Shown here piece by piece: positions 16,151 through 62,759 of a stretch of 64,000 nucleotides of DNA (positions within the stretch are counted from its first letter, which is position 1; each line of letters opens with the position of its first letter). Origin of the DNA: Labia minor. Lineage: Eukaryota > Arthropoda > Insecta > Dermaptera > Spongiphoridae. Location: the NCBI GenBank assembly GCA_963082975.1, contig OY720348.1, positions 72,317,719 through 72,381,718 on the forward strand. Reading direction: 5' to 3'. Under the pieces are notes generated by a model that worked only from the letters and a program-made list of their open reading frames with translations, ran no database searches and had not been told where the DNA came from. Both the position numbers and the translations under genes were made by a program.

Positions 16151-16157
16151 AATATTT

Positions 16158-16207: not shown

Positions 16208-16250
<43 letters not shown>

Positions 16251-24047: not shown

Positions 24048-24087
24048 ATATAGTAATTGGATGAAAAATATAGAAATTTTAATGATA

Positions 24088-24203
24088 AATATGAAATAAC
24101 AAAAGAGCTATGATCACAAGACAATTTTTTTTTTTTTTTTTTTTTTATATATATATTTAATTCGTCGTGCATAGTTTAGAATAATAGGTTAAAATTTAAT
24201 AGT
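24088..24203 (+). repeat. Stray piece of array unit left of copy 1
   Basis: Matches 25563-25665 inside the unit (ATGAAATAACAAAAGAGCTA, the poly-T run, then AATTCGTCGTGCATAGTTTA). It directly abuts the first full unit, so the left array junction joins two normally separate parts of the unit. Confidence 0.85.
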
Positions 24204-25214
24204 AATTAATAGATTTTTAATACTAGTACGATGAAATAGATAATTAATATAAAAAATAATATGCGTTGATTAAAATCATTATTAAAGATTTCGATTGGTT
24301 TGAAAACTGATTCTCTAATATTACTATAATTTTTATTTTTTTATTTTAAATTGTTTCCTTTGTATAGAATAGAAGTCCAAATTTGGTAATTTAATTGAAG
24401 CATAAATCATTTTGTTCTATAAATTTGAACTTTTTCTATAACATATCATCTATTCTAAGAGAATTACTTAATATTTAATTTATATACTAACATATATTGC
24501 CTATGTGTACCTAGATATTCTTAAACCAAATAATATAATATATTTATATTTAAAATAGAATAAAATAGTAACGTATAAATCGATGAATTTTAATTTTAAT
24601 CGGATATATACATATAATGTAGTTCTATAATTTTTTTTTTAATTTTATTTTAAATTACGAGTTTAACATGTTTTTTTTTTTATATATTCAATATTATATA
24701 ATATATATATATATATATATATTCTATTTCTTATAACATTTATTTTAGAAAAAGTGCATGCTTATTTTTTTCATTGCGATTTTATTTATCTAAAATAATT
24801 ATAAACTCTTGAAAAATAATTATTTTTTCAATATAATTTTATTTATTTTTTTAATATTGATAGCTATCCGTTATTTTCTAAGAAATCGACAAATTTATTA
24901 AAATATTTATTGAATATCAGTGAAAATGCATTATAAAATAAATAATAAAAATAAAACACTTGAAATTCAATCTCTCATAATATGATTGAAAAGAAATCAA
25001 TTTGATTAGGTTTCTAATAAAGAACAGAGTACCTAAATTAAATAAGAATTAAAACGTCACACATAATGGGGCTAGATATTGTGAATAAAAGTAAAAAAAA
25101 TATATAACTATAGTTGATATTTATTTGGAAAAAAATGATTTATACTTTTAAATTACTATATTGATATTATTATACGAGTTAAGTTATTTAAATAACTTTT
25201 CCTTTTTTTTTTTA

Positions 25215-25294
25215 GCTTGTTATGGTTTGATGGTAGTCGGTGTCTGAAGAATATATAGGATACGTATAGAAAAAGGAATCACATCTCATCAGAG
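25215..25294 (+). other. Probable 5' non-coding exon of array gene A (copy 1)
   Basis: An 80-bp island between TTTTTTTTTTAG and GTAAAG. It has no useful open frame (ATGs are followed by early stops). It lies 450 bp upstream of the first coding exon, so a 5'UTR exon is the simplest reading. Repeated in all copies. Confidence 0.4.
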
Positions 25295-25790
25295 GTAAAG
25301 TTGATATATAAACAAACTATAATTAAAAATTAGAATTACATATTCAATTAATTTTTAAGTAGAAAATCAATAAAAGTTGTATCGATAGATATATAAATAT
25401 TCATAAATTAAAACAATAAGAAAAAGAAATTTACATTCGACTGAATTTGTTTTATTCTAGTTTTTTACAATAAATTTAAATAAATATAGTATTTTATAGG
25501 AAAGTATTCTTTAAATTAAAAATGGCTTTTTTTCATTCATGATATTTATTTATATAATTAATCATGAAATAACAAAAGAGCTATGATCAAGACAATTTTT
25601 TTTTTTTTTTTTATATATTTAATTCGTCGTGCATAGTTTAGAATAATAGGTTAAAATTTAATATAATGTTTTGGATTTTTCATTTGAATATAAAAAAAAG
25701 AGTATTTAATAATTTAAATATTTTCAATTTCTCTATTAGTTCATCTGAAAGAACGTGGATTCACGAAACAAATTTGGACCACTACTATAT

Positions 25791-26422
25791 ATGGAGATGG
25801 TGAAAAGTACGAGTTCATCGAGATCGTCGAGTGACTTTCTACGAGTGGGCAACCTCTTTATAACTCCGAGGTTAGTAATTTTTGTTATAAAAAAAATGTA
25901 TTATAATTTGAATACTCAATCTTATATATGTCTTTTGTTTTTCTTTTTTTTTTTTCATGTATCATCCTTTTGCTGATGGCAAATTCAATTCTCTTCGAAT
26001 AATATTGGTTTCTTCAAAATTGTTTATAATTACAGCTCACCAAAAATAAGTACTCAACATATATTTTTTGATTATTCTGGCACTAGTGGTAGTAATGAAT
26101 TTAATTTAATATTGACAAAATTTAAATATTACAATAAAAAATACAATATTTCTATTATTTTTTGTTAAATTTAACATTGTTCGTGAATTAGTTAGTTAGA
26201 TTAAAGATTTTCAGAGGCTACCCTAGAAAACAGAAAGAATTGGAAGAGAGAAGGATAAGGATGGCAAATCTACAATCTACTGAATCATCAATTCCTTTAA
26301 AGGTATTTAGAATTGTTAGCCTGAGAGGTTGCGTATGGGGGGTGATTATACATTATTTTGGCTTAATCGTTTGTTGTTAGGGATTTACAGATAAAGGAAT
26401 GCTTCAAGAAAGTGCCTTCTGA
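25791..26422 (+). CDS. Array gene A, spliced 69-aa serine/arginine-rich protein (copy 1)
   Basis: Predicted coding exons 25791-25870, 26215-26302 and 26381-26422. Exon 1 (starting inside an exon that opens at 25740 after CTATTAG) encodes MEMVKSTSSSRSSSDFLRVG plus NLFITP and ends in AG before GTTAGT. Exon 2 follows TTTTCAG; its first A completes the arginine codon and the frame continues GYPRKQKELEERRIRMANLQ, ending phase 0 before GTATTT. Exon 3 follows GTTGTTAG and reads GFTDKGMLQESAF then TGA. All phases fit. No signal peptide or membrane segment. Family not recognised. The related gene B and the 50430 copy have the same intron position within an arginine codon. Expression is unproven; the start could be either methionine. 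Confidence 0.5.
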
Positions 26423-26715
26423 TTCATCGCGTCCAAACCTTTGTGGTAGCCTATAAATATAGATAGAAACTAGAAACATTAAATTTAATGAATTATTAAT
26501 ATATTAGAATAGAATAGAAAAAAGGTGTTGGGTTGTTGCATGCTTCTAAATATTAAAGGAAACACCTTGTTAGTATTTCGTCTTTAGTATTTAGTGGGTG
26601 GAGTCGGGTATGTGCCAGAAAATATTAAGGGATTGTTTATCTGCATGTGTTTTGTGCTTCCCAAATCGTCATTTTTTTTATTTTTTAATGACGATTCCCT
26701 TGTTTGTGTAAAGTA

Positions 26716-26901
26716 ATGTGTATCACTGAGGATGACTCGGACGTGGATCTATGGTATTGGACAGGCATTCGTGAAGGTAGTTCAACAATGTTCCTTAATG
26801 GGATTAGCCCGCCAGGATGTATTGACTACCTTGGAGCTAAGTTTAGTCTCTTTTTCATGAGTGTTCCTCCCACTATGGAGGACGCCATGAATCCCCATTA
26901 G
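26716..26901 (+). CDS. Array open frame with EDDSDVDLW motif (copy 1), uncertain
   Basis: Reads MCITEDDSDVDLWYWTGIRE, then GSSTMFLNGISPPGCIDYLG and a short tail to TAG. The acidic EDDSDVDLW start resembles the HEDDDSVEEF second exon of gene B, so this may be a coding exon of another member. Possible acceptor AAAG just before it, possible donor GTAGTT after REG. Whether the whole frame or only the first 25 residues is coding is unclear. Present identically in copies 2 and 3 (34112-34297; 41507-41692), deleted from copy 4. Confidence 0.3.
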   Translation: MCITEDDSDVDLWYWTGIREGSSTMFLNGISPPGCIDYLGAKFSLFFMSVPPTMEDAMNPH

Positions 26902-27458
26902 GTAGGGATTTTTTACAGGTTGCCACGAATGTGGTGTTCAATCGTAATCCAAAAACTCAAAGTCACTCTCAGCTGATCCACAGATACTCACAAACGGCTT
27001 CCCACTTAATCTATGCTTTTCTTTTTCTTTTTTTTTTCCTTCTTCTTCTAAATTACGCATTTCTTCGGAAGTTAAAACACAAAATAGACCATACTGTGTC
27101 TAATAAGCGCGTTCGGGAGTGTTTTATTTTTTTTTTTTTTTTTTTTTTTTCGTTTCCGTGATTGCAATCTTTTCTAGCAAGAAGAGTGTTTTGCACGAAG
27201 ATAGAAAATATTATTAGATGGCCATCCGTGCCATAGAATTGGGTTTGGGATAGGATAGACTGTGTACAGGGAAGACATCAGGGCGCAATGAAGTAGCCTC
27301 CACGGTAGGTTATATGTATATTGAAATTCAATTTATGTCTTCTTTCCTGTGACGTTATTCTCTTCTGTTTGTTACCTCTAACTAATGATCTTTTTTTCTA
27401 TTTCTTTTTATTTTCATTGTCTGAAGAGCATCATTTGAATAACTTGGTTTGGTGGTAT

Positions 27459-27845
27459 ATGGGGCCAGATCAGAATTTCATCGCATCTCTTCACAACGAC
27501 TGCGAGACATCTCATCGGTGAGTTGAATTTTTATTTCTATAATATTTCATGAAATAATTTTTAATTTGTCTTAAAATAATTAAAATTACCTAATTTTTAA
27601 ATGGCGTTTATTGTTAGAACTGAAATTTTTGTGACAGTAATTCTTCTTCGAAAATGTTAAAATAAATCTAAAAAACTTTCTTTGTTTTTTACTAATTATT
27701 CTTTGATTTTTCTAACTTACAATATAGAAGAATACACTGGATATAATAAATAATATATACAAGTAAATATTTCGAAATCACAAAACTAATTATGAATCTA
27801 TTTCTTGTTTTTAGATCTACATTGAATGGAATGGAGCGAGCATAA
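27459..27845 (+). CDS. Array mini-gene D, spliced 29-aa frame (copy 1), uncertain
   Basis: Exon 27459-27517 encodes MGPDQNFIASLHNDCETSH and ends in CG before GTGAGT. After TTTTTAG, exon 27815-27845 completes arginine (CGA) and reads STLNGMERA then TAA. As in genes A and B, the intron splits an arginine codon. An upstream in-frame stretch (HHLNNLVWWY) is also open, and the second exon has a longer open alternative frame (IYIEWNGASIRFHLPTLKV) that fits a phase-0 join instead. Repeated in copies 2 (34855-35241) and 3 (42250-42636). Very small, so low confidence. Confidence 0.3.
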
Positions 27846-28265
27846 GATTTCATCTACCTACTTTGAAGGTTACTAAAAAGGAAAATAAAAAATGGGTAAG
27901 AATTTTATTTATTTTTTCTACTATTTAAATAATTAATATTGAAATATTATTTTAAATTTTAAAATATTATCTACAAGTACTCTTACTGTGTCCAAAATTT
28001 CATTAAATTATTAATGTATAATCAATCCTATTCCTATGATAGATATCCTCCAACTTCTATTAAATACTATTCAATATAAATATTCATTGAATTAAATTTC
28101 AAATATTAATTAATGATGGTATATTATAGAAATTTCTATAAAAGGATAAAATAAAATAGAAGACTTATTAAAAACATTCTTTGACTATTATCTTCTTCAA
28201 GTATTATTTTTTAAGTTTAAAAAAGGTTTTATTTAATTTTTAATATATATCACGATATGTTTTAT

Positions 28266-28361
28266 CTATCACCATCAGATATGTTCGTACCTGTTGACTC
28301 CACTCTCTGGTCACTAAGAAATGATGATGGAAGAAGCTAATAAGAATAAGCGCATGCACAA
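28266..28361 (+). other. Exon-like island upstream of array gene B (copy 1)
   Basis: A segment bounded by TCACCATCAG and CG-GTGAGT. It carries two short readings, VPVDSTLWSLRNDDGRS (then a stop) and MMEEANKNKRMHK. Joined to the next island (28489), the MMEEANK frame stops after three residues, so it may be a 5'UTR exon with short upstream ORFs for gene B or a decayed coding exon. Conserved in all four copies. Confidence 0.4.
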
Positions 28362-28497
28362 ACGGTGAGTAGAATTATGAATACAATAGAATTTCAAAAT
28401 AATCCAGATATTTTTACATTGATGAATTTATAAAGATACTACACGCGTATATTAAATTACTAAGTGAAATGTTTTGTTAATTTTTTAGTTTTACTTG

Positions 28498-28862
28498 ATG
28501 ATGTCCACCATTCCAGAATCAAGAGAGAGATTGAAGAACATAATGACTTCCAGATCATCATCATCCATCGGGCGATTGCAAGGGGGGGTGAAACCCCTCC
28601 GTAAGTATTTTTTTAAGAAATATTTTAATATTATTCTAATCTATTTTCAATCTTAATAAATATGTCTTTTATTCTTGTTTTTCATGTAACCTCGATCAAT
28701 GTTGATGCCAATCTTTCACTTTTACGGTTTCATCAACAAGGTGAGTAGATTTCCAATATGAATTATTCCAGGAAAACATTATTTCATATTAGTCTTTGTT
28801 TTCCAGGGCATGAAGACGATGATTCTGTTGAAGAGTTTGTCGACTGCATTACCTACCATTAA
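28498..28862 (+). CDS. Array gene B, spliced 52-aa protein (copy 1)
   Basis: Predicted exons 28498-28600 and 28807-28862. Exon 1 (after TTTTTTAG at 28481) reads MMSTIPESRERLKNIMTSRS, SSSIGRLQGGVKPL and ends with C before GTAAGT. Exon 2 follows TTTTCCAG; GG completes arginine and the frame reads HEDDDSVEEFVDCITYH then TAA. The TSRSSSSIGRLQGG block is the counterpart of gene A's SSSRSSSDFLRVGN. A third, diverged copy at 50430 keeps the same splice and frame. No signal peptide, membrane span or known domain. A different frame of exon 1 is also open, so proteomic or RNA support is needed to fix the frame. Confidence 0.5.
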
Positions 28863-30279
28863 TCAATCCATTGTAAGTATTTTTTATGTATTTATATATT
28901 TTATTTTTTTATTTTATAGTATATTATAAATGATACGCGTAGTATATAACAAGATATTTGAATTTCATGATAATTTAGAAATTAGATTTCAGTTCTTGGT
29001 TGAGAGATTTTTTTCAATTCTTTTGATTTATACATGTATTTCTCCTTTAAAAGAATGATAATTATTTTTAATATTAAATCAGTTTAATTATAAATTATTT
29101 AATTTTAATTATTGCTCTATATATATACATACTTAAAGAGAATAATATTGAAAATAATATTTTAAAATAAAACTTTTAAATGGAGTGAACACTAATCGCA
29201 ATAGATAGCGGGATATGTATTAAATCAGTATAATATTTTTTCAAAAGTATATAAAATTTATATCATTAATATTAATATTTCTTAATGATGATAGTTTTGA
29301 AAACCTGTAGAGTAAATAATTATTTTTCAAATAATAACACTTTTGCTGCCCTTATTTTATTTTAAACACTCTTATTCGAATATATTTTATTTAAAAAAAT
29401 CTCCCGAAATTCTTCTAAAGATAAACAACAAAATTTTAAAAAGAACGCATTGAATTTTTCATTTCAAATAGCTTATAGAAAGATTATGCTTTAATATTAG
29501 ATTAAATATAAAGAGAATCACGTTTATTTGAACTTTGAGATAAGCTATAAATAATGTAAATTGTAAATTTAGAGAAAGGAAGATAATTAATATTAAATAT
29601 GATATTTATTTTACGATTAGAGTATAATGCAAAAATTTCGGTTAAATTTAAATTTAATTCAGTGAATATCATCTATGTATTTGAAATTATTTCGATTCTA
29701 TACAATTTAAGCCCGATATTACTTACAAAAGTTTAAATAAGCCTATTTTGATTGGTGACATTTATTTGAAAGGATTTGTATGATATACAAATTTGTAAAA
29801 AAAAAAAGATAAGGCAATAAGTATTTTATTTACAAATAGTATGTTTTTAAATTCAATAGAATATTTGAATTAGAGTTTAAAATACGTACTGGATGGTAAT
29901 TAACTATATTTATGAATTTGGGAAGATTTTACAAAGTTGGAGCCCCTTTTAGTTAGATATCCACCGACACAGAAAATACTAAATTTAAAAAAATTACTAA
30001 AATTCTCTCTTAAAGCTATCTACATACAGAAAGAATTTTAGAAAGAATGTATTGATTCATTTCCTCTAGACAGATAAACAAAATTAAATTTTATTTATAT
30101 TAATATCAAGAGAATATATAACGTTTATTTTTTAAATTCGAAATAGGATACATATAATATATTGTAAGTTCGGTGGAGAAGATAAATAATATTAATCATA
30201 ATATTTAAGATTGAAGAATTCATATGAAATTTCTATTTAGTGAATAACAATCTTTTGGAAATTGAACTGATTGAAATGA
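28863..30279. other. AT-rich second half of the array unit
   Basis: No exon-like island or protein-like frame found. The same AT-rich sequence is in copies 2 and 3 and absent from copy 4's diverged tail. One position differs between copies (GATAAGG in copies 1 and 3, GAAAAGG in copy 2, near 29810/37205/44600). Confidence 0.6.
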
Positions 30280-30700
30280 AGGGGGGTTCACTGCCTGGAT
30301 GTTTTCTCTGCCGATGCCTGATTGTGCAATTGATCTAACTATCAATTGATAAACAGACCACCACGGATCCAAGTAGATCAGCAGAATAAACGCCCGACGG
30401 GGTAATCGAACAGTTGAGCCGATTACTGAGCTGGATCGCTAACGATAATAGCCTCTCGTTGAGCTTCCCTCAGTAGACCAGGCCTCGAAGAAAATATACG
30501 AATCGGCAGGCGATGGCGGCGTATTGACTCCACAAACACAGGCGGCAGGTAACAAACGTAGGCAGGCCGAACACAAAACCAAGCAGAAGGGGGTCTTCAG
30601 AGGGTGCCGTCCCTTTTTATATGGGGATATGTAAGTAGGGGAATGTCACTCATCAGTGGGTGTTCAGAGAGGGGATTGGTCAAACACATTAGTTCATTTA
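30280..30700. repeat. GC-rich island inside the array unit (copy 1)
   Basis: About 420 bp of near-balanced GC in a unit that is otherwise mostly AT. It includes GGCAGGCGATGGCGGCGTAT and CAGGCGGCAGGTAACAAACG, and a TATATGGGGATATG block near its right end. No clear ORF, tRNA or transposon ends. It could be a promoter region, a solo LTR fragment or a captured non-coding RNA. Present at 37676-38096 and 45071-45491 in the other copies. Confidence 0.5.
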
Positions 30701-33186
30701 TCTTAAATTAAAAAACTTAAACTTATAATTGAAATATCTTAAAATTAATTTTCTTAATAATACAATTATAAAATATTAACATTTATCCTTACTTAATACT
30801 AAAAACCTATTTTTATATTAATTAAATAAAATTATTATCGGAGAGCGGCAATTCAAATTAAATTGCATTCAGGTTCCATGCTGAGCCACAATCTATAGAA
30901 TCTTTATCCGATATTTCTTAAAAATAAAATAGTTTTAATTGGTGATATTTATTTATTATATATTAATTTAAAGGCGATAAATATTTTAGATACAATTTCA
31001 ATTCAATTTCAATGTTTTTGAATATAACGATGGATTTCTTTTATTTTTTCTTGTCATGAAATTATCTGGTATCATTTTATTAAATCAATTCAAATGGGAA
31101 CTATTAGAATAAAATAAAGGATATTTGGTTAATTGTCGGAAATGAAAAACTAACTATTGATATATTTTAAAAACTCTGAGAATTACTAGAATTATTATTT
31201 ATTAATTTAATATAAATTATTGAACGAGTTCTGACTTGTCCATAGTGAGTCTTGATATCCAAGGATGGGGGTGGTGCATTTACATAAATCATGATAGTTT
31301 CTGGTTTGATATAAAATAAAAAACATTAAATTATAAATTGTTTAGATAATTGGGAGTAGTAATATCTCTCTATATAAAATAATAATACTTGTGGTGGAAT
31401 TAAAATAAAATATTATAAGAAAAATCAAATTCAATTCAGACAGAATTCTCCTGAACAATTAACGAAAAATTTTGAAAACATTATATTGAATTTTTCATTT
31501 CACATGATTCAACTTATAAAGTAAGGTATTTATAAATAAAATTCAATTTTATTTATTTTAAAAAGAAAAACGTTTATTTAAATTTAGAAATACGACTACA
31601 AATAATAGATTTTTAATACTAGTACGATGAAATAGATAATTAATATAAAAAATAATATGCGTTGATTAAAATCATTATTAAAGATTTCGATTAGTTTGAA
31701 AACTGATTCTCTAATATTACTATAATTTTTATTTTTTTATTTTAAATTGTTTCCTTTGTATAGAATAGAAGTCCAAATTTGGTAATTTAATTGAAGCATA
31801 AATCATTTTGTTCTATAAATTTGAACTTTTTCTATAACATATCATCTATTCTAAGAGAATTACTTAATATTTAATTTATATACTAACATATATTGCCTAT
31901 GTGTACCTAGATATTCTTAAACCAAATAATATAATATATTTATATTTAAAATAGAATAAAATAGTAACGTATAAATCGATGAATTTTAATTTTAATCGGA
32001 TATATACATATAATGTAGTTCTATAATTTTTTTTTTAATTTTATTTTAAATTACGAGTTTAACATGTTTTTTTTTTTATATATTCAATATTATATAATAT
32101 ATATATATATATATATATTCTATTTCTTATAACATTTATTTTAGAAAAAGTGCATGCTTATTTTTTTCATTGCGATTTTATTTATCTAAAATAATTATAA
32201 ACTCTTGAAAAATAATTATTTTTTCAATATAATTTTATTTATTTTTTTAATATTGATAGCTATCCGTTATTTTCTAAGAAATCGACAAATTTATTAAAAT
32301 ATTTATTGAATATCAGTGAAAATGCATTATAAAATAAATAATAAAAATAAAACACTTGAAATTCAATCTCTCATAATATGATTGAAAAGAAATCAATTTG
32401 ATTAGGTTTCTAATAAAGAACAGAGTACCTAAATTAAATAAGAATTAAAACGTCACACATAATGGGGCTAGATATTGTGAATAAAAGTAAAAAAAATATA
32501 TAACTATAGTTGATATTTATTTGGAAAAAAATGATTTATACTTTTAAATTACTATATTGATATTATTATACGAGTTAAGTTATTTAAATAACTTTTCCTT
32601 TTTTTTTTTAGCTTGTTATGGTTTGATGGTAGTCGGTGTCTGAAGAATATATAGGATACGTATAGAAAAAGGAATCACATCTCATCAGAGGTAAAGTTGA
32701 TATATAAACAAACTATAATTAAAAATTAGAATTACATATTCAATTAATTTTTAAGTAGAAAATCAATAAAAGTTGTATCGATAGATATATAAATATTCAT
32801 AAATTAAAACAATAAGAAAAAGAAATTTACATTCGACTGAATTTGTTTTATTCTAGTTTTTTACAATAAATTTAAATAAATATAGTATTTTATAGGAAAG
32901 TATTCTTTAAATTAAAAATGGCTTTTTTTCATTCATGATATTTATTTATATAATTAATCATGAAATAACAAAAGAGCTATGATCAAGACAATTTTTTTTT
33001 TTTTTTTTATATATTTAATTCGTCGTGCATAGTTTAGAATAATAGGTTAAAATTTAATATAATGTTTTGGATTTTTCATTTGAATATAAAAAAAAGAGTA
33101 TTTAATAATTTAAATATTTTCAATTTCTCTATTAGTTCATCTGAAAGAACGTGGATTCACGAAACAAATTTGGACCACTACTATAT

Positions 33187-33818
33187 ATGGAGATGGTGAA
33201 AAGTACGAGTTCATCGAGATCGTCGAGTGACTTTCTACGAGTGGGCAACCTCTTTATAACTCCGAGGTTAGTAATTTTTGTTATAAAAAAAATGTATTAT
33301 AATTTGAATACTCAATCTTATATATGTCTTTTGTTTTTCTTTTTTTTTTTTCATGTATCATCCTTTTGCTGATGGCAAATTCAATTCTCTTCGAATAATA
33401 TTGGTTTCTTCAAAATTGTTTATAATTACAGCTCACCAAAAATAAGTACTCAACATATATTTTTTGATTATTCTGGCACTAGTGGTAGTAATGAATTTAA
33501 TTTAATATTGACAAAATTTAAATATTACAATAAAAAATACAATATTTCTATTATTTTTTGTTAAATTTAACATTGTTCGTGAATTAGTTAGTTAGATTAA
33601 AGATTTTCAGAGGCTACCCTAGAAAACAGAAAGAATTGGAAGAGAGAAGGATAAGGATGGCAAATCTACAATCTACTGAATCATCAATTCCTTTAAAGGT
33701 ATTTAGAATTGTTAGCCTGAGAGGTTGCGTATGGGGGGTGATTATACATTATTTTGGCTTAATCGTTTGTTGTTAGGGATTTACAGATAAAGGAATGCTT
33801 CAAGAAAGTGCCTTCTGA
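33187..33818 (+). CDS. Array gene A (copy 2)
   Basis: Exons 33187-33266, 33611-33698 and 33777-33818, identical to copy 1 in coding sequence as far as read. Same splice sites and 69-residue product. Function unknown. Confidence 0.5.
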
Positions 33819-34854
33819 TTCATCGCGTCCAAACCTTTGTGGTAGCCTATAAATATAGATAGAAACTAGAAACATTAAATTTAATGAATTATTAATATAT
33901 TAGAATAGAATAGAAAAAAGGTGTTGGGTTGTTGCATGCTTCTAAATATTAAAGGAAACACCTTGTTAGTATTTCGTCTTTAGTATTTAGTGGGTGGAGT
34001 CGGGTATGTGCCAGAAAATATTAAGGGATTGTTTATCTGCATGTGTTTTGTGCTTCCCAAATCGTCATTTTTTTTATTTTTTAATGACGATTCCCTTGTT
34101 TGTGTAAAGTAATGTGTATCACTGAGGATGACTCGGACGTGGATCTATGGTATTGGACAGGCATTCGTGAAGGTAGTTCAACAATGTTCCTTAATGGGAT
34201 TAGCCCGCCAGGATGTATTGACTACCTTGGAGCTAAGTTTAGTCTCTTTTTCATGAGTGTTCCTCCCACTATGGAGGACGCCATGAATCCCCATTAGGTA
34301 GGGATTTTTTACAGGTTGCCACGAATGTGGTGTTCAATCGTAATCCAAAAACTCAAAGTCACTCTCAGCTGATCCACAGATACTCACAAACGGCTTCCCA
34401 CTTAATCTATGCTTTTCTTTTTCTTTTTTTTTTCCTTCTTCTTCTAAATTACGCATTTCTTCGGAAGTTAAAACACAAAATAGACCATACTGTGTCTAAT
34501 AAGCGCGTTCGGGAGTGTTTTATTTTTTTTTTTTTTTTTTTTTTTTCGTTTCCGTGATTGCAATCTTTTCTAGCAAGAAGAGTGTTTTGCACGAAGATAG
34601 AAAATATTATTAGATGGCCATCCGTGCCATAGAATTGGGTTTGGGATAGGATAGACTGTGTACAGGGAAGACATCAGGGCGCAATGAAGTAGCCTCCACG
34701 GTAGGTTATATGTATATTGAAATTCAATTTATGTCTTCTTTCCTGTGACGTTATTCTCTTCTGTTTGTTACCTCTAACTAATGATCTTTTTTTCTATTTC
34801 TTTTTATTTTCATTGTCTGAAGAGCATCATTTGAATAACTTGGTTTGGTGGTAT

Positions 34855-35241
34855 ATGGGGCCAGATCAGAATTTCATCGCATCTCTTCACAACGACTGCG
34901 AGACATCTCATCGGTGAGTTGAATTTTTATTTCTATAATATTTCATGAAATAATTTTTAATTTGTCTTAAAATAATTAAAATTACCTAATTTTTAAATGG
35001 CGTTTATTGTTAGAACTGAAATTTTTGTGACAGTAATTCTTCTTCGAAAATGTTAAAATAAATCTAAAAAACTTTCTTTGTTTTTTACTAATTATTCTTT
35101 GATTTTTCTAACTTACAATATAGAAGAATACACTGGATATAATAAATAATATATACAAGTAAATATTTCGAAATCACAAAACTAATTATGAATCTATTTC
35201 TTGTTTTTAGATCTACATTGAATGGAATGGAGCGAGCATAA
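34855..35241 (+). CDS. Array mini-gene D (copy 2), uncertain
   Basis: Exons 34855-34913 and 35211-35241, as in copy 1, encoding the same 29 residues with a split arginine codon. Low confidence for the same reasons. Confidence 0.3.
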
Positions 35242-35893
35242 GATTTCATCTACCTACTTTGAAGGTTACTAAAAAGGAAAATAAAAAATGGGTAAGAATT
35301 TTATTTATTTTTTCTACTATTTAAATAATTAATATTGAAATATTATTTTAAATTTTAAAATATTATCTACAAGTACTCTTACTGTGTCCAAAATTTCATT
35401 AAATTATTAATGTATAATCAATCCTATTCCTATGATAGATATCCTCCAACTTCTATTAAATACTATTCAATATAAATATTCATTGAATTAAATTTCAAAT
35501 ATTAATTAATGATGGTATATTATAGAAATTTCTATAAAAGGATAAAATAAAATAGAAGACTTATTAAAAACATTCTTTGACTATTATCTTCTTCAAGTAT
35601 TATTTTTTAAGTTTAAAAAAGGTTTTATTTAATTTTTAATATATATCACGATATGTTTTATCTATCACCATCAGATATGTTCGTACCTGTTGACTCCACT
35701 CTCTGGTCACTAAGAAATGATGATGGAAGAAGCTAATAAGAATAAGCGCATGCACAAACGGTGAGTAGAATTATGAATACAATAGAATTTCAAAATAATC
35801 CAGATATTTTTACATTGATGAATTTATAAAGATACTACACGCGTATATTAAATTACTAAGTGAAATGTTTTGTTAATTTTTTAGTTTTACTTG

Positions 35894-36258
35894 ATGATGT
35901 CCACCATTCCAGAATCAAGAGAGAGATTGAAGAACATAATGACTTCCAGATCATCATCATCCATCGGGCGATTGCAAGGGGGGGTGAAACCCCTCCGTAA
36001 GTATTTTTTTAAGAAATATTTTAATATTATTCTAATCTATTTTCAATCTTAATAAATATGTCTTTTATTCTTGTTTTTCATGTAACCTCGATCAATGTTG
36101 ATGCCAATCTTTCACTTTTACGGTTTCATCAACAAGGTGAGTAGATTTCCAATATGAATTATTCCAGGAAAACATTATTTCATATTAGTCTTTGTTTTCC
36201 AGGGCATGAAGACGATGATTCTGTTGAAGAGTTTGTCGACTGCATTACCTACCATTAA
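35894..36258 (+). CDS. Array gene B (copy 2)
   Basis: Exons 35894-35996 and 36203-36258, same frame and product as copy 1 (MMSTIPESRERL start, EEFVDCITYH end). Confidence 0.5.
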
Positions 36259-40582: not shown

Positions 40583-41213
40583 ATGGAGATGGTGAAAAGT
40601 ACGAGTTCATCGAGATCGTCGAGTGACTTACTACGAGTGGGCAACCTATTTATAACTCCGAGGTTAGTAATTTTTGTTATAAAAAAAATGTATTATAATT
40701 TGAATACTCAATCTTATATATGTCTTTTGTTTTTCTTTTTTTTTTTTCATGTATCATCCTTTTCTGATGGCAAATTCAATTTTCTTCGAATAATATTGGT
40801 TTCTTCAAAATTTTTTATAAATACAGCTCACCAAAAATAAGTACTCAACATATATTTTTTGATTATTCTGGCACTAGTGGTAGTAATGAATTTAATTTAA
40901 TATTGACAAAATTTAAATATTACAATAAAAAATACAATATTTCTATTATTTTTTGTTAAATTTAACATTGTTCGTGAATTAGTTAGTTAGATTAAAGATT
41001 TTCAGAGGCTACCCTAGAAAACAGAAAGAATTGGAAGAGAGAAGGATAAGGATGGCAAATCTACAATCTACTGAATCATCAATTCCTTTAAAGGTATTTA
41101 GAATTGTTAGCCTGAGAGGTTGCGTATGGGGGGTGATTATACATTATTTTGGCTTAATCGTTTGTTGTTAGGGATTTACAGATAAAGGAATGCTTCAAGA
41201 AAGTGCCTTCTGA
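40583..41213 (+). CDS. Array gene A (copy 3), F-to-L variant
   Basis: Exons 40583-40662, 41006-41093 and 41172-41213. The SSSDFLRVG of copies 1-2 is SSSDLLRVG here, and the NLF leucine codon differs silently. The one-base deletion lies in the first intron and does not affect the predicted protein. Confidence 0.5.
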
Positions 41214-42249
41214 TTCATCGCGTCCAAACCTTTGTGGTAGCCTATAAATATAGATAGAAACTAGAAACATTAAATTTAATGAATTATTAATATATTAGAA
41301 TAGAATAGAAAAAAGGTGTTGGGTTGTTGCATGCTTCTAAATATTAAAGGAAACACCTTGTTAGTATTTCGTCTTTAGTATTTAGTGGGTGGAGTCGGGT
41401 ATGTGCCAGAAAATATTAAGGGATTGTTTATCTGCATGTGTTTTGTGCTTCCCAAATCGTCATTTTTTTTATTTTTTAATGACGATTCCCTTGTTTGTGT
41501 AAAGTAATGTGTATCACTGAGGATGACTCGGACGTGGATCTATGGTATTGGACAGGCATTCGTGAAGGTAGTTCAACAATGTTCCTTAATGGGATTAGCC
41601 CGCCAGGATGTATTGACTACCTTGGAGCTAAGTTTAGTCTCTTTTTCATGAGTGTTCCTCCCACTATGGAGGACGCCATGAATCCCCATTAGGTAGGGAT
41701 TTTTTACAGGTTGCCACGAATGTGGTGTTCAATCGTAATCCAAAAACTCAAAGTCACTCTCAGCTGATCCACAGATACTCACAAACGGCTTCCCACTTAA
41801 TCTATGCTTTTCTTTTTCTTTTTTTTTTCCTTCTTCTTCTAAATTACGCATTTCTTCGGAAGTTAAAACACAAAATAGACCATACTGTGTCTAATAAGCG
41901 CGTTCGGGAGTGTTTTATTTTTTTTTTTTTTTTTTTTTTTTCGTTTCCGTGATTGCAATCTTTTCTAGCAAGAAGAGTGTTTTGCACGAAGATAGAAAAT
42001 ATTATTAGATGGCCATCCGTGCCATAGAATTGGGTTTGGGATAGGATAGACTGTGTACAGGGAAGACATCAGGGCGCAATGAAGTAGCCTCCACGGTAGG
42101 TTATATGTATATTGAAATTCAATTTATGTCTTCTTTCCTGTGACGTTATTCTCTTCTGTTTGTTACCTCTAACTAATGATCTTTTTTTCTATTTCTTTTT
42201 ATTTTCATTGTCTGAAGAGCATCATTTGAATAACTTGGTTTGGTGGTAT

Positions 42250-42636
42250 ATGGGGCCAGATCAGAATTTCATCGCATCTCTTCACAACGACTGCGAGACA
42301 TCTCATCGGTGAGTTGAATTTTTATTTCTATAATATTTCATGAAATAATTTTTAATTTGTCTTAAAATAATTAAAATTACCTAATTTTTAAATGGCGTTT
42401 ATTGTTAGAACTGAAATTTTTGTGACAGTAATTCTTCTTCGAAAATGTTAAAATAAATCTAAAAAACTTTCTTTGTTTTTTACTAATTATTCTTTGATTT
42501 TTCTAACTTACAATATAGAAGAATACACTGGATATAATAAATAATATATACAAGTAAATATTTCGAAATCACAAAACTAATTATGAATCTATTTCTTGTT
42601 TTTAGATCTACATTGAATGGAATGGAGCGAGCATAA
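42250..42636 (+). CDS. Array mini-gene D (copy 3), uncertain
   Basis: Exons 42250-42308 and 42606-42636, identical in frame to copy 1. Confidence 0.3.
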
Positions 42637-43288
42637 GATTTCATCTACCTACTTTGAAGGTTACTAAAAAGGAAAATAAAAAATGGGTAAGAATTTTATT
42701 TATTTTTTCTACTATTTAAATAATTAATATTGAAATATTATTTTAAATTTTAAAATATTATCTACAAGTACTCTTACTGTGTCCAAAATTTCATTAAATT
42801 ATTAATGTATAATCAATCCTATTCCTATGATAGATATCCTCCAACTTCTATTAAATACTATTCAATATAAATATTCATTGAATTAAATTTCAAATATTAA
42901 TTAATGATGGTATATTATAGAAATTTCTATAAAAGGATAAAATAAAATAGAAGACTTATTAAAAACATTCTTTGACTATTATCTTCTTCAAGTATTATTT
43001 TTTAAGTTTAAAAAAGGTTTTATTTAATTTTTAATATATATCACGATATGTTTTATCTATCACCATCAGATATGTTCGTACCTGTTGACTCCACTCTCTG
43101 GTCACTAAGAAATGATGATGGAAGAAGCTAATAAGAATAAGCGCATGCACAAACGGTGAGTAGAATTATGAATACAATAGAATTTCAAAATAATCCAGAT
43201 ATTTTTACATTGATGAATTTATAAAGATACTACACGCGTATATTAAATTACTAAGTGAAATGTTTTGTTAATTTTTTAGTTTTACTTG

Positions 43289-43653
43289 ATGATGTCCACC
43301 ATTCCAGAATCAAGAGAGAGATTGAAGAACATAATGACTTCCAGATCATCATCATCCATCGGGCGATTGCAAGGGGGGGTGAAACCCCTCCGTAAGTATT
43401 TTTTTAAGAAATATTTTAATATTATTCTAATCTATTTTCAATCTTAATAAATATGTCTTTTATTCTTGTTTTTCATGTAACCTCGATCAATGTTGATGCC
43501 AATCTTTCACTTTTACGGTTTCATCAACAAGGTGAGTAGATTTCCAATATGAATTATTCCAGGAAAACATTATTTCATATTAGTCTTTGTTTTCCAGGGC
43601 ATGAAGACGATGATTCTGTTGAAGAGTTTGTCGACTGCATTACCTACCATTAA
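43289..43653 (+). CDS. Array gene B (copy 3)
   Basis: Exons 43289-43391 and 43598-43653, same frame and product as copy 1. Confidence 0.5.
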
Positions 43654-46600
43654 TCAATCCATTGTAAGTATTTTTTATGTATTTATATATTTTATTTTTT
43701 TATTTTATAGTATATTATAAATGATACGCGTAGTATATAACAAGATATTTGAATTTCATGATAATTTAGAAATTAGATTTCAGTTCTTGGTTGAGAGATT
43801 TTTTTCAATTCTTTTGATTTATACATGTATTTCTCCTTTAAAAGAATGATAATTATTTTTAATATTAAATCAGTTTAATTATAAATTATTTAATTTTAAT
43901 TATTGCTCTATATATATACATACTTAAAGAGAATAATATTGAAAATAATATTTTAAAATAAAACTTTTAAATGGAGTGAACACTAATCGCAATAGATAGC
44001 GGGATATGTATTAAATCAGTATAATATTTTTTCAAAAGTATATAAAATTTATATCATTAATATTAATATTTCTTAATGATGATAGTTTTGAAAACCTGTA
44101 GAGTAAATAATTATTTTTCAAATAATAACACTTTTGCTGCCCTTATTTTATTTTAAACACTCTTATTCGAATATATTTTATTTAAAAAAATCTCCCGAAA
44201 TTCTTCTAAAGATAAACAACAAAATTTTAAAAAGAACGCATTGAATTTTTCATTTCAAATAGCTTATAGAAAGATTATGCTTTAATATTAGATTAAATAT
44301 AAAGAGAATCACGTTTATTTGAACTTTGAGATAAGCTATAAATAATGTAAATTGTAAATTTAGAGAAAGGAAGATAATTAATATTAAATATGATATTTAT
44401 TTTACGATTAGAGTATAATGCAAAAATTTCGGTTAAATTTAAATTTAATTCAGTGAATATCATCTATGTATTTGAAATTATTTCGATTCTATACAATTTA
44501 AGCCCGATATTACTTACAAAAGTTTAAATAAGCCTATTTTGATTGGTGACATTTATTTGAAAGGATTTGTATGATATACAAATTTGTAAAAAAAAAAAGA
44601 TAAGGCAATAAGTATTTTATTTACAAATAGTATGTTTTTAAATTCAATAGAATATTTGAATTAGAGTTTAAAATACGTACTGGATGGTAATTAACTATAT
44701 TTATGAATTTGGGAAGATTTTACAAAGTTGGAGCCCCTTTTAGTTAGATATCCACCGACACAGAAAATACTAAATTTAAAAAAATTACTAAAATTCTCTC
44801 TTAAAGCTATCTACATACAGAAAGAATTTTAGAAAGAATGTATTGATTCATTTCCTCTAGACAGATAAACAAAATTAAATTTTATTTATATTAATATCAA
44901 GAGAATATATAACGTTTATTTTTTAAATTCGAAATAGGATACATATAATATATTGTAAGTTCGGTGGAGAAGATAAATAATATTAATCATAATATTTAAG
45001 ATTGAAGAATTCATATGAAATTTCTATTTAGTGAATAACAATCTTTTGGAAATTGAACTGATTGAAATGAAGGGGGGTTCACTGCCTGGATGTTTTCTCT
45101 GCCGATGCCTGATTGTGCAATTGATCTAACTATCAATTGATAAACAGACCACCACGGATCCAAGTAGATCAGCAGAATAAACGCCCGACGGGGTAATCGA
45201 ACAGTTGAGCCGATTACTGAGCTGGATCGCTAACGATAATAGCCTCTCGTTGAGCTTCCCTCAGTAGACCAGGCCTCGAAGAAAATATACGAATCGGCAG
45301 GCGATGGCGGCGTATTGACTCCACAAACACAGGCGGCAGGTAACAAACGTAGGCAGGCCGAACACAAAACCAAGCAGAAGGGGGTCTTCAGAGGGTGCCG
45401 TCCCTTTTTATATGGGGATATGTAAGTAGGGGAATGTCACTCATCAGTGGGTGTTCAGAGAGGGGATTGGTCAAACACATTAGTTCATTTATCTTAAATT
45501 AAAAAACTTAAACTTATAATTGAAATATCTTAAAATTAATTTTCTTAATAATACAATTATAAAATATTAACATTTATCCTTACTTAATACTAAAAACCTA
45601 TTTTTATATTAATTAAATAAAATTATTATCGGAGAGCGGCAATTCAAATTAAATTGCATTCAGGTTCCATGCTGAGCCACAATCTATAGAATCTTTATCC
45701 GATATTTCTTAAAAATAAAATAGTTTTAATTGGTGATATTTATTTATTATATATTAATTTAAAGGCGATAAATATTTTAGATACAATTTCAATTCAATTT
45801 CAATGTTTTTGAATATAACGATGGATTTCTTTTATTTTTTCTTGTCATGAAATTATCTGGTATCATTTTATTAAATCAATTCAAATGGGAACTATTAGAA
45901 TAAAATAAAGGATATTTGGTTAATTGTCGGAAATGAAAAACTAACTATTGATATATTTTAAAAACTCTGAGAATTACTAGAATTATTATTTATTAATTTA
46001 ATATAAATTATTGAACGAGTTCTGACTTGTCCATAGTGAGTCTTGATATCCAAGGATGGGGGTGGTGCATTTACATAAATCATGATAGTTTCTGGTTTGA
46101 TATAAAATAAAAAACATTAAATTATAAATTGTTTAGATAATTGGGAGTAGTAATATCTCTCTATATAAAATAATAATACTTGTGGTGGAATTAAAATAAA
46201 ATATTATAAGAAAAATCAAATTCAATTCAGACAGAATTCTCCTGAACAATTAACGAAAAATTTTGAAAACATTATATTGAATTTTTCATTTCACATGATT
46301 CAACTTATAAAGTAAGGTATTTATAAATAAAATTCAATTTTATTTATTTTAAAAAGAAAAACGTTTATTTAAATTTAGAAATACGACTACAAATAATAGA
46401 TTTTTAATACTAGTACGATGAAATAGATAATTAATATAAAAAATAATATGCGTTGATTAAAATCATTATTAAAGATTTCGATTAGTTTGAAAACTGATTC
46501 TCTAATATTACTATAATTTTTATTTTTTTATTTTAAATTGTTTCCTTTGTATAGAATAGAAGTCCAAATTTGGTAATTTAATTGAAGCATAAATCATTTT

Positions 46601-47747
46601 GTTCTATAAATTTGAACTTTTTCTATAACATATCATCTATTCTAAGAGAATTACTTAATATTTAATTTATATACTAACATATATTGCCTATGTGTACCTA
46701 GATATTCTTAAACCAAATAATATAATATATTTATATTTAAAATAGAATAAAATAGTAACGTATAAATCGATGAATTTTAATTTTAATCGGATATATACAT
46801 ATAATGTAGTTCTATAATTTTTTTTTAATTTTATTTTAAATTACGAGTTTAACATGTTTTTTTTTTTATATATTCAATATTATATAATATATATATATAT
46901 ATATATATTCTATTTCTTATAACATTTATTTTAGAAAAAGTGCATGCTTATTTTTTTCATTGCGATTTTATTTATCTAAAATAATTATAAACTCTTGAAA
47001 AATAATTATTTTTTCAATATAATTTTATTTATTTTTTTAATATTGATAGCTATCCGTTATTTTCTAAGAAATCGACAAATTTATTAAAATATTTATTGAA
47101 TATCAGTGAAAATGCATTATAAAATAAATAATAAAAATAAAACACTTGAAATTCAATCTCTCATAATATGATTGAAAAGAAATCAATTTGATTAGGTTTC
47201 TAATAAAGAACAGAGTACCTAAATTAAATAAGAATTAAAACGTCACACATAATGGGGCTAGATATTGTGAATAAAAGTAAAAAAAATATATAACTATAGT
47301 TGATATTTATTTGGAAAAAAATGATTTATACTTTTAAATTACTAAGGTAATGGCACCAATAGATGACATTTTAAGCGCTCTTGTCGCTATTTTCTTTTAT
47401 AAAACCGAAACTATACGTCTCACAAAAAAAATCTTTTGGTTATTATAAAGCTTATCTTACCTTTTATCACCAGGATAAATATTTTAAACTTTTATATGAG
47501 TTTAATAGGAAATATAATTTTTTTTCAAAGTAATCAAATGGAACCTATAGATGACACCAAAAATTTTGGTGGAACCTAATGATGACAATTATGGAACCCA
47601 AAGATGACATCTACTTTTTTTACTTCGCTAGCTCTCTTTATCTTCAACTTATTTATTTACAAAGTAAAACATCTTTCCAACACCTTGTTACTGATTTAAC
47701 TTTAGTTATAATAAAAAAATCAGGTTTCATATAATGATACATTAGAT

Positions 47748-48212
47748 CAGAGGTTCTTAAACTGTGGTCCGCGGACCCCTGGGGGTCCGCGAAGACTTTT
47801 CTGGGGGTCCGCAAAGCCATCGTACAGGTGCACGAGAAAATTATGAGTCAGTTAAAACTTTATTTAATATAAAAAGAGCGATGGGATGGCTTTGTGAGGA
47901 AACAGAGATCAAATACCCAAATTCAACGAAATGTGCAAGAAAACTATTGCTACCGTTTCTATCTTCATATTTAGCTGAATTTTCATTCTTCAATATTATA
48001 ATTTCTAATAAAATGTGTTCTACAATATGCAAAAAAATCGTTATTCACCAATCACTGTTAGAAATATTCAACATATATCCTTGTTCTTATGAGATCGCAA
48101 ACCAGAAATTAACTAATAAAATGACGTAAAGTACCTAAAGTTGGGATGGGGTCCGTCAAAAAAAATTTCTCCAAGTGGGGGTCCGCGGAGTACATAAGTT
48201 TAAGAACCTCTG
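47748..48212 (+). mobile_element. hAT element (465 bp) nested in the TA-transposon
   Basis: Ends CAGAGGTTCTTAAAC and GTTTAAGAACCTCTG, flanked by the 8-bp duplication CATTAGAT (47740-47747; 48213-48220). Characteristic GGTCCGCGGACCCC and GGGGTCCGCGGAG blocks lie near each end. The interior keeps a little transposase sequence. Confidence 0.93.
47848..48129 (+). pseudogene. hAT transposase C-terminal scrap
   Basis: The frame contains LLLPFLSSYLAEFSFF, comparable to the LLPFxTxYLxExxFS block of the hAT dimerisation domain, followed by a degenerate tail. Only about 90 residues remain inside a 465-bp deletion derivative; no catalytic core. Confidence 0.55.
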
Positions 48213-49610
48213 CATTAGATATATTTATTGTGATTGATTTTATTTTTAGCTGATTATTATAATAAAATAAAAAATTGATTTTAAACAAATCTTTTTTTAA
48301 TTATGCATTTTTAATTATACATTGAGAACAGAGTAATTTAAAAAAAATTTCAAAAAAATAGTGTATGAAATTCTGGAACAGAAAAAAATTTTCTGACAAT
48401 GAGAAACACAGCGTCACCTTTAGGTTCCTATATCAATTCAGACATGCAACTTGGTGGAATTATATAAAATTATCTCCTCTTTACAGCTATTAATATAATA
48501 GACAATTTTTTTAAAAACCTACTTATAGCTGACATTGCTGTCATCTATAGGAAAAACAATTTTTAGGGGCACCTATAGATAACACCGTTGATAAAAAAGA
48601 TACTTTTAAGAATTAGGTGTTTAAATTGAAATGATTTATATCTATATTAAGTCTATTTTATAATGTAGTTGTTAAATTCTTGATAAATATGAATATAAAA
48701 ATATAAAATACTAATTAAGAACATTACTTCCCTTAAGGTTATCTTTAAGATTTGTTGAAAAAATCAATTGTTGACGATTCGGTCTGCTTTTCAAGTTAAA
48801 AGAAAAAAAATAGGGCGACTTATTGTATTGTTGTAGGATATCTCAGGTGGTGGAAAAGCATAACTATCATTTAAAAAAAAAAATTTCCGCGTATGTTTTA
48901 AAATTTGCTTATTTTTTTAGTTTAAATTCAAAAGTGTCATCTATAGGTGCCATGTCATCTATAGGTGCCATTACCTTATATTGATATTATTATACGAGTT
49001 AAGTTATTTAAATAACTTTTCCTTTTTTTTTTTAGCTTGTTATGGTTTGATGGTAGTCGGTGTCTGAAGAATATATAGGATACGTATAGAAAAAGGAATC
49101 ACATCTCATCAGAGGTAAAGTTGATATATAAACAAACTATAATTAAAAATTAGAATTACATATTCAATTAATTTTTAAGTAGAAAATCAATAAAAGTTGT
49201 ATCGATAGATATATAAATATTCATAAATTAAAACAATAAGAAAAAGAAATTTACATTCGACTGAATTTGTTTTATTCTAGTTTTTTACAATAAATTTAAA
49301 TAAATATAGTATTTTATAGGAAAGTATTCTTTAAATTAAAAATGGCTTTTTTTCATTCATGATATTTATTTATATAATTAATCATGAAATAACAAAAGAG
49401 CTATGATCAAGACAATTTTTTTTTTTTTTTTTATATATTTAATTCGTCGTGCATAGTTTAGAATAATAGGTTAAAATTTAATATAATGTTTTGGATTTTT
49501 CATTTGAATATAAAAAAAAGAGTATTTAATAATTTAAATATTTTCAATTTCTCTATTAGTTCATCTGAAAGAACGTGGATTCACGAAACAAATTTGGACC
49601 ACTACTATAT

Positions 49611-49690
49611 ATGGAGATGGTGAAAAGTACGAGTTCATCGAGATCGTCGAGTGACTTACTACGAGTGGGCAACCTATTTATAACTCCGAG
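49611..49690 (+). pseudogene. Array gene A exon 1 remnant (copy 4)
   Basis: First coding exon with the copy-3-type SSSDLLRVG sequence and intact donor. Exons 2 and 3 were removed by the 2.07-kb deletion, so the gene is truncated. Confidence 0.7.
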
Positions 49691-50239
49691 GTTAGTAATT
49701 TTTGTTATAAAAAAAATGTATTATAATTTGAATACTCAATCTTATATATGTCTTTTGTTTTTCTTTTTTTTTTTTCATGTATCATCCTTTTGCTGATGGC
49801 AAATTCAATTCTCTTCGAATAATATTGGTTTCTTCAAAATTTTTTATAAATACAGCTCACCAAAAATAAGTACTCAACATATATTTTTTGATTATTCTGG
49901 CACTAGTGGTAGTAATGAATTTAAAACATTCTTTCACTATTATCTTCTTCAAGTATTATTTTTTAAGTTTAAAAAAGGTTTTATTTAATTTTTAATATAT
50001 ATCACGATATTTTTTATCTATCACCATCAGATATGTTCGTACCCGTTGACTCCACTCTCTGGTCACTAAGAAATGATGATGGAAGAAGCTAATAAGAATA
50101 AGCGCATGCACAAACGGTGAGTAGAATTATGAATACAATAGAATTTCAAAATAATCCAGATATTTTTACATTGATGAATTTATAACGATACTACACGCGT
50201 ATATTAAATTACTAAGTGAAATGTTTTGTTAATTTTTTA

Positions 50240-50300
50240 GTTTTACTTGATGATGTCCACCATTCCAGAATCAAGAGAGAGATTGAACAACATAATGACT
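50240..50300 (+). pseudogene. Truncated array gene B exon 1 (copy 4)
   Basis: Begins after TTTTTTAG like the other copies (TTTTACTTGATGATGTCCAC) but breaks at ATGACT, before the serine block and donor, and runs into a second diverged copy of the preceding intron. Confidence 0.75.
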
Positions 50301-50429
50301 TATATAATGAATTTATAAAGATACTACACGCGTATATTAAATTATTAAGTGAAATGGTTTGTTAATTTTTTAGTCTTAATTGATGTGTACCATTGCAGAA
50401 ACAAGAGAGAGAGAGAGATTGACAACATA

Positions 50430-50720
50430 ATGACTTCCAGATCATCGTCAACATACATCGGGCTATTGCAAGGGGGTGTAACCCCCCGTAAGTATTTGTT
50501 TAAGATATTTAAATATTATTTTCTACTCTATTTTCAATCTTAATAAATATGTCTTTTATTTTTCTTGTTTTTCATGTAACCTCGATCAATGTTGATGTTT
50601 CACTTTTAGGTTTCATCAAAAAGATGAGTAGGTTTCCAATAAATGAATTATTCCAGGAAAACATTATTTCATATTAGTCTTTGTTTTACAGGGATTGAAG
50701 ACGATGATACTGTTGAATAA
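50430..50720 (+). CDS. Diverged array gene B paralog at the right edge
   Basis: Exons 50430-50487 and 50692-50720. Exon 1 reads MTSRSSSTYIGLLQGGVTP and ends with C before GTAAGT. Exon 2 follows TTTTACAG; GG completes arginine and the frame reads IEDDDTVE then TAA. The exon is open upstream to about 50349. Despite substitutions and length changes relative to gene B, the serine block, the split arginine, splice phase and the EDDD[ST]VE sequence are kept, while the C-terminus is shortened by an earlier stop. That pattern suggests coding constraint in the past. Function unknown. Confidence 0.45.
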
Positions 50721-50744
50721 TCAATACATTGTAAGTATTGTAGA

Positions 50745-52135
50745 TGTAAAAAATTGAAAAAAAAAATCTTATTTTATCTACCACAATCCATATTTTCTAA
50801 GGAAAGTTTTAAAATATCGTAAATATCCAAAGTGAATCTTAATTACAATCCAAAATGGTATAAATTAATATATAAAAAGTTAAAAAATCTCTTGTATTTA
50901 CCAAAAGTAGAATTTTCCCCAAAAAAATTGAAAAAAATAATATTTTTTTCAATGACATTGCCTAATTTCCAAGGAAATTTATAAAATATCGTAAACATAC
51001 AAATTTATTTTAATATATTTATTATTTTAAAAACTACAAGAACGCTTACTGTCCAAATCTTCTTTTCCAGGTTGATTTTTTCTTCATGCTGTTTTTTATT
51101 ATTTTTATCATCATTTTCTTCATCCAATCTGGGAATGCTTTTTCTTTTTTTTTAATTTTTTTTATTAATCTTTCACCAGAAACATTTTTATTATCCATCT
51201 CACTCTCCTTCATATTTTTTCCTGTTTTTTCATTTCATGCGGATTCCATTTTTTTTCTCTTTATTTTTTTGTAAATACTTAAGTAGATTTTTTATTAATA
51301 TTTCACGATGTTTCATCCTCATTTATACCTTTTTTATTAGCAGTTGTCCTTTTCAATTTGTTCACCATTTTACTTAATTTTGATTTTCTGTAATGACATT
51401 TTCAATTTCTTTATTTGCTTTTTTGTTTTTTTAGTGGCATTGAAGAAATATTATTTTGGATAATATCACCACCATTTCCTATAACATTATCACCCGATAT
51501 TAACTCCACTTGTCATTTCAAGATCATTTTACATTTTATTATATATTTTTAGAGTCAAAAGGAAACAATAACAATAACACAAATTCAACACATAATATAA
51601 TACTAAAAATTCTATTATTTTTTTAATAATTTATTTATTAACTATTTAAAATTAAAAAAAAGAAGCTCTGTTTAACACTTAATAACAATTTGAGTTGAGA
51701 TTTGCTTTTGGAGGAAAAATTGTTTTTATACAATTTTGACAAAAGTTATTCTTATTATTATTTAAGATAAAATTAACAAATATTTACGTTATTTATTTAT
51801 TTTGACCATTCTTCGACTGAGCCGATATATTTTTTAATAGTGAGATTACTTAATAGGATCATCTCAATCGCTTCTTTTCATTTTACAATATTAATTGAGT
51901 CTCTTTTTGATCCCCCACCCCTCTAATTTTTTATTATTATTAACAATAACATATTTTATAAAGACTTATGTTTAGAGAAGTGAAACAGGAAGATTATATA
52001 GAATGGATTAATTTTTTTAAGATCATCCATTGATTAACCCCTTGGAGTGCAAACTACAAACTCAGTATCTAATTTGAACTATTTCCTCTTGAAATTTAAG
52101 TGGAACGATGTGTCGAGCTAAAAGAGAGATTTTAT
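50745..52135. other. AT/T-rich DNA right of the array
   Basis: Contains a weak two-copy repeat (TTTCTAAGGAAAG-TTTTAAAATATCGTAAA at about 50795 and its relative near 50968), T-rich low-complexity sequence (51070-51450) and no supported gene. Confidence 0.55.
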
Positions 52136-52139
52136 CACG

Positions 52140-62757: not shown

Positions 62758-62759
62758 TA

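Follow-up and report, generated by a model that had tools for sequence, protein, structure and literature searches.

A probable young macrosatellite or duplicon family with exon-like relics at chromosome ends and in X arrays of the earwig Labia minor

A stretch of 64,000 nucleotides from the earwig Labia minor (assembly GCA_963082975.1, contig OY720348.1, positions 72,317,719 to 72,381,718 of the forward strand; the whole stretch is hereafter called the window) contains a tandem array of 7.4-kb units that carry exon-like islands. This amplicon is probably a young Labia minor macrosatellite or duplicon, situated at chromosome ends and in arrays on the X chromosome, which was spread by recombination and carries decayed relics of exons. 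The chromosome of the window, C10, appears to be the X of the species, as we infer from the portion of PMC11829193 consulted. According to the consulted portion of PMC11937785, the specimen was male and the Y is apparently missing from the assembly.

Results

Tandem array in the window

Positions within the unit are given as ref coordinates, that is, as window positions within unit 1. A low-stringency blastn search of the unit against the window was flooded by AT-rich matches and the stronger matches alone were used. The array is laid out as follows.

24081–24203, + strand: remnant of the preceding unit, almost identical to ref 25570–25663 except for small indels
24204–31599, + strand: putative macrosatellite unit 1, 7,396 bp (self-BLAST, alignment)
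31600–38995, + strand: putative macrosatellite unit 2, 7,396 bp, three columns differing from unit 1 (self-BLAST, alignment)
38996–46390, + strand: putative macrosatellite unit 3, 7,395 bp (self-BLAST, alignment)
46391–49924, + strand: start of unit 4, interrupted by an inserted element and stopping at ref 26104 (self-BLAST, alignment)
49919–50301, + strand: continuation of unit 4, corresponding to ref 28167–28549, past a deletion of ~2.06 kb (self-BLAST)
50307–50717, + strand: older diverged copy (88%) of ref 28422–28832 (self-comparison)

Units 1 to 3 follow each other head-to-tail over 24204–46390 with nine variable alignment columns over ~7.4 kb; tandem units of more than 1 kb and near-identity within the aligned array, both of which characterize a macrosatellite, were found. 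A preliminary description of the window had reported three nearly identical complete units starting at 24207, 31603 and 38999 and a damaged fourth, and our analysis agrees on both, with the starts shifted to 24204, 31600 and 38996. In the fourth, unit sequence at 46391–47344 is followed by the element at 47345–48976 and then by unit sequence again to 49924, ref 26104–28167 is lost (self-comparison), and the older 88% copy stands at the end. Six of the nine variable columns fall within ref 25838–26030, where unit 3 stands apart from the first two units; at four of these six columns, unit 4 agrees with unit 3. This cluster of variants looks like a conversion tract.

Distribution of the family

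We searched the 604-Mb assembly with ref 26100–26700 and ref 28403–28900, which returned 226 and 358 candidates, and scored the best 40 from each (80 scored matches). Identity was 98–100% with the former query and 94–100% with the latter, and the X held 24/40 and 30/40 of the scored matches, respectively. When scored matches within 200 kb were clustered, they made up 20 loci, 12 of which are on the X, though the X accounts for 12.8% of chromosome length (binomial p 9e-7, assuming independent loci). Seven of the 20 lie within 0.5 Mb of a chromosome end (p 2e-9 under the same assumption), and the family is not restricted to the ends: 11 loci lie in the interior of the X, and others at C1:114.7 and C2:80.2 (chromosome and position in Mb). 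The host amplification proposed in the preliminary description is therefore supported on a wider scale than the window revealed, but not as one local event.

The same query gave at least two scored matches at C1:114.7 and at seven of the 12 loci on the X. Spacings in the X arrays include ~5,857 bp at 57.89 Mb, ~6,790 bp at 31.17 Mb, 6,690–6,890 bp at 15.66 Mb and 7,396 bp at 72.24 and 72.34 Mb; a few steps at 34.5, 45.2 and 49.4 Mb are longer. Among the autosomes, C1 stands out with a large array at 114.70–114.76 Mb, where 15 of the 80 scored matches lie. Over the core of the unit (ref 25723–27681), divergence is at most ~1.3% among most copies, and older copies occur at X:23.9 (2–3% divergence) and, as one copy, at X:65.77 (~5%). 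A tree of the core groups all seven end-proximal copies with a support of 0.947.

Among the matches listed, the DNA beside the end-proximal copies is homologous between several chromosomes, and the seven loci within 0.5 Mb of an end, with their common flanks, constitute the homologous blocks at several ends that are typical of subtelomeric duplicons. A 161-bp satellite is present in the retrieved stretch of six of these seven loci, the exception being C6, and was not found in the window or in the examined X-interior stretches (69.2, 65.8, 23.9 and 72.2 Mb). TTCGG arrays were seen at three of the eight chromosome ends examined, in line with the consulted portion of PMC11829193. The assembly ends at the C1 start, the C5 start and the C9 end fall inside sequence of 161-bp period, so these ends stop before the TTCGG telomere. 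A 75-bp piece of the unit (27051–27125) recurs directly after ref 29202 in the C9 and C5 subtelomeres, before satellite-like sequence. The C9 subtelomere also has an endonuclease-like frame (GGDFNVNF; L066:5781–6229) upstream of the subtelomeric copy, for which the Pfam family Exo_endo_phos_2 gave E 0.2, below cut-off.

Copy edges and travelling flanks

The point at which a copy ends varies by locus: edges were read at ref 25548 and 25714 at X:69.2, at ref 29094 at X:57.9, at ref 29202 at C9, C1 and C5, and at ref 29526 at C4. The edges, taken within the retrieved stretches, differ across 10 loci, X:57.9 and the window, and the constant termini expected of a Helitron-like element were not found. 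The flanks of the window array recur ~99.4 kb upstream, the left one (window 16106–25101) at 99.956% over 9.0 kb and the right one (48970–56734) at 99.961% over 7.8 kb. The window's left flank is also carried by the array at X:57.88 (20101–21112 at 97% and 21850–23886 at 98.5%), including an old paralogue of one exon-like island and a cut piece of the bacterial gene fragment listed below. Because the copy edges differ and unrelated flanking DNA travels along, segmental copying together with local unequal exchange is a better fit than a transposon of constant termini. The earlier remark that the unit has no transposon hallmarks holds for the whole unit, whose copy edges differ between loci.

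23775–24047, + strand: truncated Wolbachia CADD/4-aminobenzoate-synthase-like fragment, an open frame at the array edge

This open reading frame matches Haem_oxygenas_2 and TENA_THI-4, and also solved chains of 4-aminobenzoate synthase and of CT610, which we take to be CADD. Its best bacterial relatives among 49 loci are a Rickettsiales metagenome-assembled genome (89%) and Wolbachia wOc (85%), with DNA identity of up to 85% over 251 bp, and it corresponds to the middle portion alone of a gene of ~220 residues. Five copies of the fragment were found in the genome (5/5 candidates scored), all on the X, at 72.341, 72.242, 69.210, 49.459 and 57.883 Mb, and each adjoins a copy or an array of the 7.4-kb repeat.

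Exon-like islands and their borders

The following islands and the old paralogue were recognized.

23370–23456, + strand: old paralogue of the island at 25740–25870, AG and GT borders retained (read off the sequence)
25740–25870, + strand: exon-like island containing exon 1 (from 25791) of the 69-residue frame (island scan, frame reading)
26215–26302, + strand: exon-like island, exon 2 of the 69-residue frame (frame reading)
26381–26421, + strand: exon-like island, exon 3 of the 69-residue frame, to about its stop (frame reading)
27815–27895, + strand: exon-like island, outside the four sites of the scan (read off the sequence)
28279–28364, + strand: exon-like island (island scan)
28489–28600, + strand: exon-like island, exon 1 of the 52-residue frame, with a G-run/C-run of variable length before the donor (island scan, copy alignment)
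28807–28872, + strand: exon-like island, exon 2 of the 52-residue frame (island scan, frame reading)

The unit was scanned for GC islands flanked by an acceptor and a donor, with thresholds picked after the islands had been seen; four donor sites were obtained on its + strand and none on the − strand. The background was 0.6 per 7.4 kb on either strand in window 1–24000 plus 51001–64000, and shuffling within 25-bp blocks gave a mean of 0.62, with 0 of 200 shuffles reaching four. Splice-bordered islands are thus more numerous on one of the strands than chance would give, so that the exon-like arrangement is apparently genuine, and the good splice borders noted in the preliminary description are borne out on the + strand. 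The old paralogue aligns at 64% identity (23395–23731 against 25806–26128).

Divergence among copies is 1.6% in donors, 1.1% in acceptors, 3.7% in exons and 2.3% in introns, with the bounds used for the 27815–27895 island off by a few bases. Base composition contributes to both contrasts: G and C sites are more variable than A and T sites in exons as well as in introns, which accounts for part of the excess in exons and for part of the low divergence at the splice borders. Donors are changed in some copies, at position 28365 in 4 of 48 cells and at 28601 in 2 of 78 cells. In an alignment of 15 sequences, the hairpin in island 28489–28600 showed varying run lengths and a weak consensus fold (−16.4 kcal/mol). 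Rfam gave no match in the window at gathering and none in 23200–31700 at E up to 3, and ARAGORN, with the bacterial code, found no tRNA within the window.

Reading frames and selection

In the window units, the junctions named in the preliminary description do join the islands in phase into frames of 69 and 52 residues, and the AG/GT borders are retained in the copies read for both; what did not stand is that these are genes, most of the other copies read having broken frames. Of 14 copies, six keep the 69-residue frame intact (units 1–3, X:69.2, X:65.77a and C6); it is stopped in six end-proximal ones and wrecked in two. The 52-residue frame reaches its stop in 4 of 12 two-exon copies (units 1–3 and C4) and has stops in all four copies carrying exon 1 alone, counts that leave out three more copies read at exon 1 only. 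The frames are accordingly not kept among copies, the window units being three of the intact ones in each case.

Counted by event, the ratio of nonsynonymous to synonymous changes (N/S) was 17/4 = 4.25 against 3.85 expected for the 69-residue frame, three of the variants being stops, and 30/7 = 4.29 against 3.36 expected for the 52-residue frame, with unit 2 excluded, frameshifted copies included and G and C sites given double weight in the expectation. These counts give no sign of purifying selection on the two predicted proteins. By copy, third codon positions of the 52-residue frame diverge by 3.7%, compared with 6.0% and 8.7% at the others, opposite to the 69-residue frame, and the two parts of a possible 29-residue frame diverge by 2.9% and 1.5%. 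Pfam assigned the predicted peptides to no family at or above cut-off, and units 1–3 contain no stop-to-stop frame of more than 104 residues. With N/S at or above expectation and most frames broken, the proposal of an orphan micro-gene cluster encoding 69 and 52 residues is not supported.

Insertions and neighbouring features

47345–48976, no strand assigned: inserted DNA element whose inverted ends are 24 bp long (one mismatch), with TA target duplication (borders read off the sequence)
30266–30888, no strand assigned: GC-rich insert in the unit lineage of the window

The terminal inverted repeat of the element at 47345–48976 is AGGTAATGGCACC(A/T)ATAGATGACA. By eye, a second inverted-repeat element (ends near 47750 and 48215) is apparently nested within it. 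The twin array, which lies ~99.4 kb upstream, has the site without the element, and the insertion therefore most simply postdates that duplication. The GC-rich insert is present at X:69.2 Mb and absent from 5/5 other loci whose junction was inspected; it was considered as a long terminal repeat and rejected, no clear target duplication being seen.

To the left of the array, three related copies of ~650 bp lie within 20028–23126 (20028–20684, 21108–21747 and 22493–23126), the middle one inverted. Further left, a long interspersed element at 2364–6414, with a PRE_C2HC frame and a 909-codon endonuclease/reverse-transcriptase frame, is situated between Ig/Fn3-like frames on the − strand (570–2019 and 6628–6990). 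The latter, with an Fn3 exon at 1055–1669 found by Pfam, belong to a large muscle-type gene, presumably twitchin/projectin. On the right, a 258-bp tandem repeat of about four copies (59073–60121) overlaps a 404-codon open frame on the − strand, and a pair of 836-bp copies (56705–57540 and 60497–61332) is 100% identical.

Discussion

The data are best accounted for by a young macrosatellite or duplicon whose copies would have multiplied locally by unequal exchange and moved between loci by ectopic recombination or break-induced copying, from subtelomere to subtelomere and from one X array to another. The exon-like islands would be leftovers of an older spliced gene or RNA gene, with the 69- and 52-residue frames now drifting without selection at the protein level, and tiny proteins of these lengths are unlikely. 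Several points weigh against this account. The exchange mechanism is read off structure alone, the distribution rests on the best matches (40/226 and 40/358 scored), and the X excess was measured against chromosome length only; since the end-proximal copies are related, the loci are not fully independent. In addition, the splice borders vary least, as functional spliced RNA would also give, and by copy the third codon positions of the 69-residue frame are the most variable (3.3% against 1.4% and 2.0%).

The islands may instead be exons of a functional spliced non-coding RNA, with the X arrays kept for the RNA or the DNA, for example in X recognition or X-Y conflict. We consider this unlikely: the islands stand above chance on a single strand, their borders are the least variable parts, AG and GT are retained even in the 64% paralogue at 23370–23456 and the X holds 12 of the 20 loci, but such an RNA is predicted from splice-like borders in the DNA, the low border divergence is in part compositional, Rfam gave no match in the searches above and the donors at 28365 and 28601 are altered in some copies. 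Dispersal by a transposon, for instance a rolling-circle element of Helitron-like type, which would deposit tandem arrays and carry along pieces of genes, would explain why the copies are dispersed and highly identical, and the endonuclease-like frame in the C9 subtelomeric flank, with its weak Pfam match below cut-off, is in its favour; it is nevertheless improbable given edges that vary from locus to locus, flanking DNA that moves along with the copies and the lack in units 1–3 of any stop-to-stop frame over 104 residues. Highly improbable, in our view, is a bolder scheme in which the repeat is an X-spreading locus for a spliced non-coding RNA, where arrays shared with subtelomeres colonized the X as X-recognition sites for dosage compensation or as weapons in an X-Y conflict, the Wolbachia fragment being an accidental tag of the jumps. 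We give hardly any credence to the micro-genes of the preliminary description. In the window units, good borders do allow the frames to be joined, AG/GT is kept in the copies read and the third positions of the 69-residue frame vary most by copy, but intact frames are few and three of each are window units, N/S by event does not fall below expectation, exons are more variable than introns and no Pfam family reaches cut-off.

The macrosatellite or duplicon that we favour resembles several known systems in part. The human macrosatellites DXZ4, on the X, and D4Z4, in subtelomeric 4q/10q, likewise have near-identical kilobase units arranged head-to-tail in an X-linked or subtelomeric position; the Labia minor family differs in holding both chromosome ends and many sites in the interior of the X, and no conserved open reading frame of the D4Z4 type was found in its unit. 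As in subtelomeric segmental duplications (duplicons), blocks are common to several ends, here mostly next to the 161-bp satellite, but the Labia minor repeat also occurs in arrays deep within the X and at C1:114.7 Mb. Slx/Sly and Stellate are X-linked ampliconic families tied to sex-chromosome conflict, and while multi-copy X arrays are common to both cases, the Labia minor repeat showed no intact protein product. We found no description of this repeat family in the open-licence literature searched, which would make it a new, X-rich macrosatellite or duplicon family with exon-like relics.

The results call for caution: in AT-rich DNA, AG-island-GT patterns with short open frames lend micro-genes little support. 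Earwigs are listed as holocentric in the consulted portion of PMC3401891, and in a member of this insect group the repeat would be a single family that occurs both at chromosome ends and inside one sex chromosome. Some of the copying from one X site to another is tagged by the bacterial gene fragment, so that the direction and mode of spread should be datable. If the arrays are transcribed, they would readily serve to test, in earwigs, whether a repeat functions in an X-specific manner.

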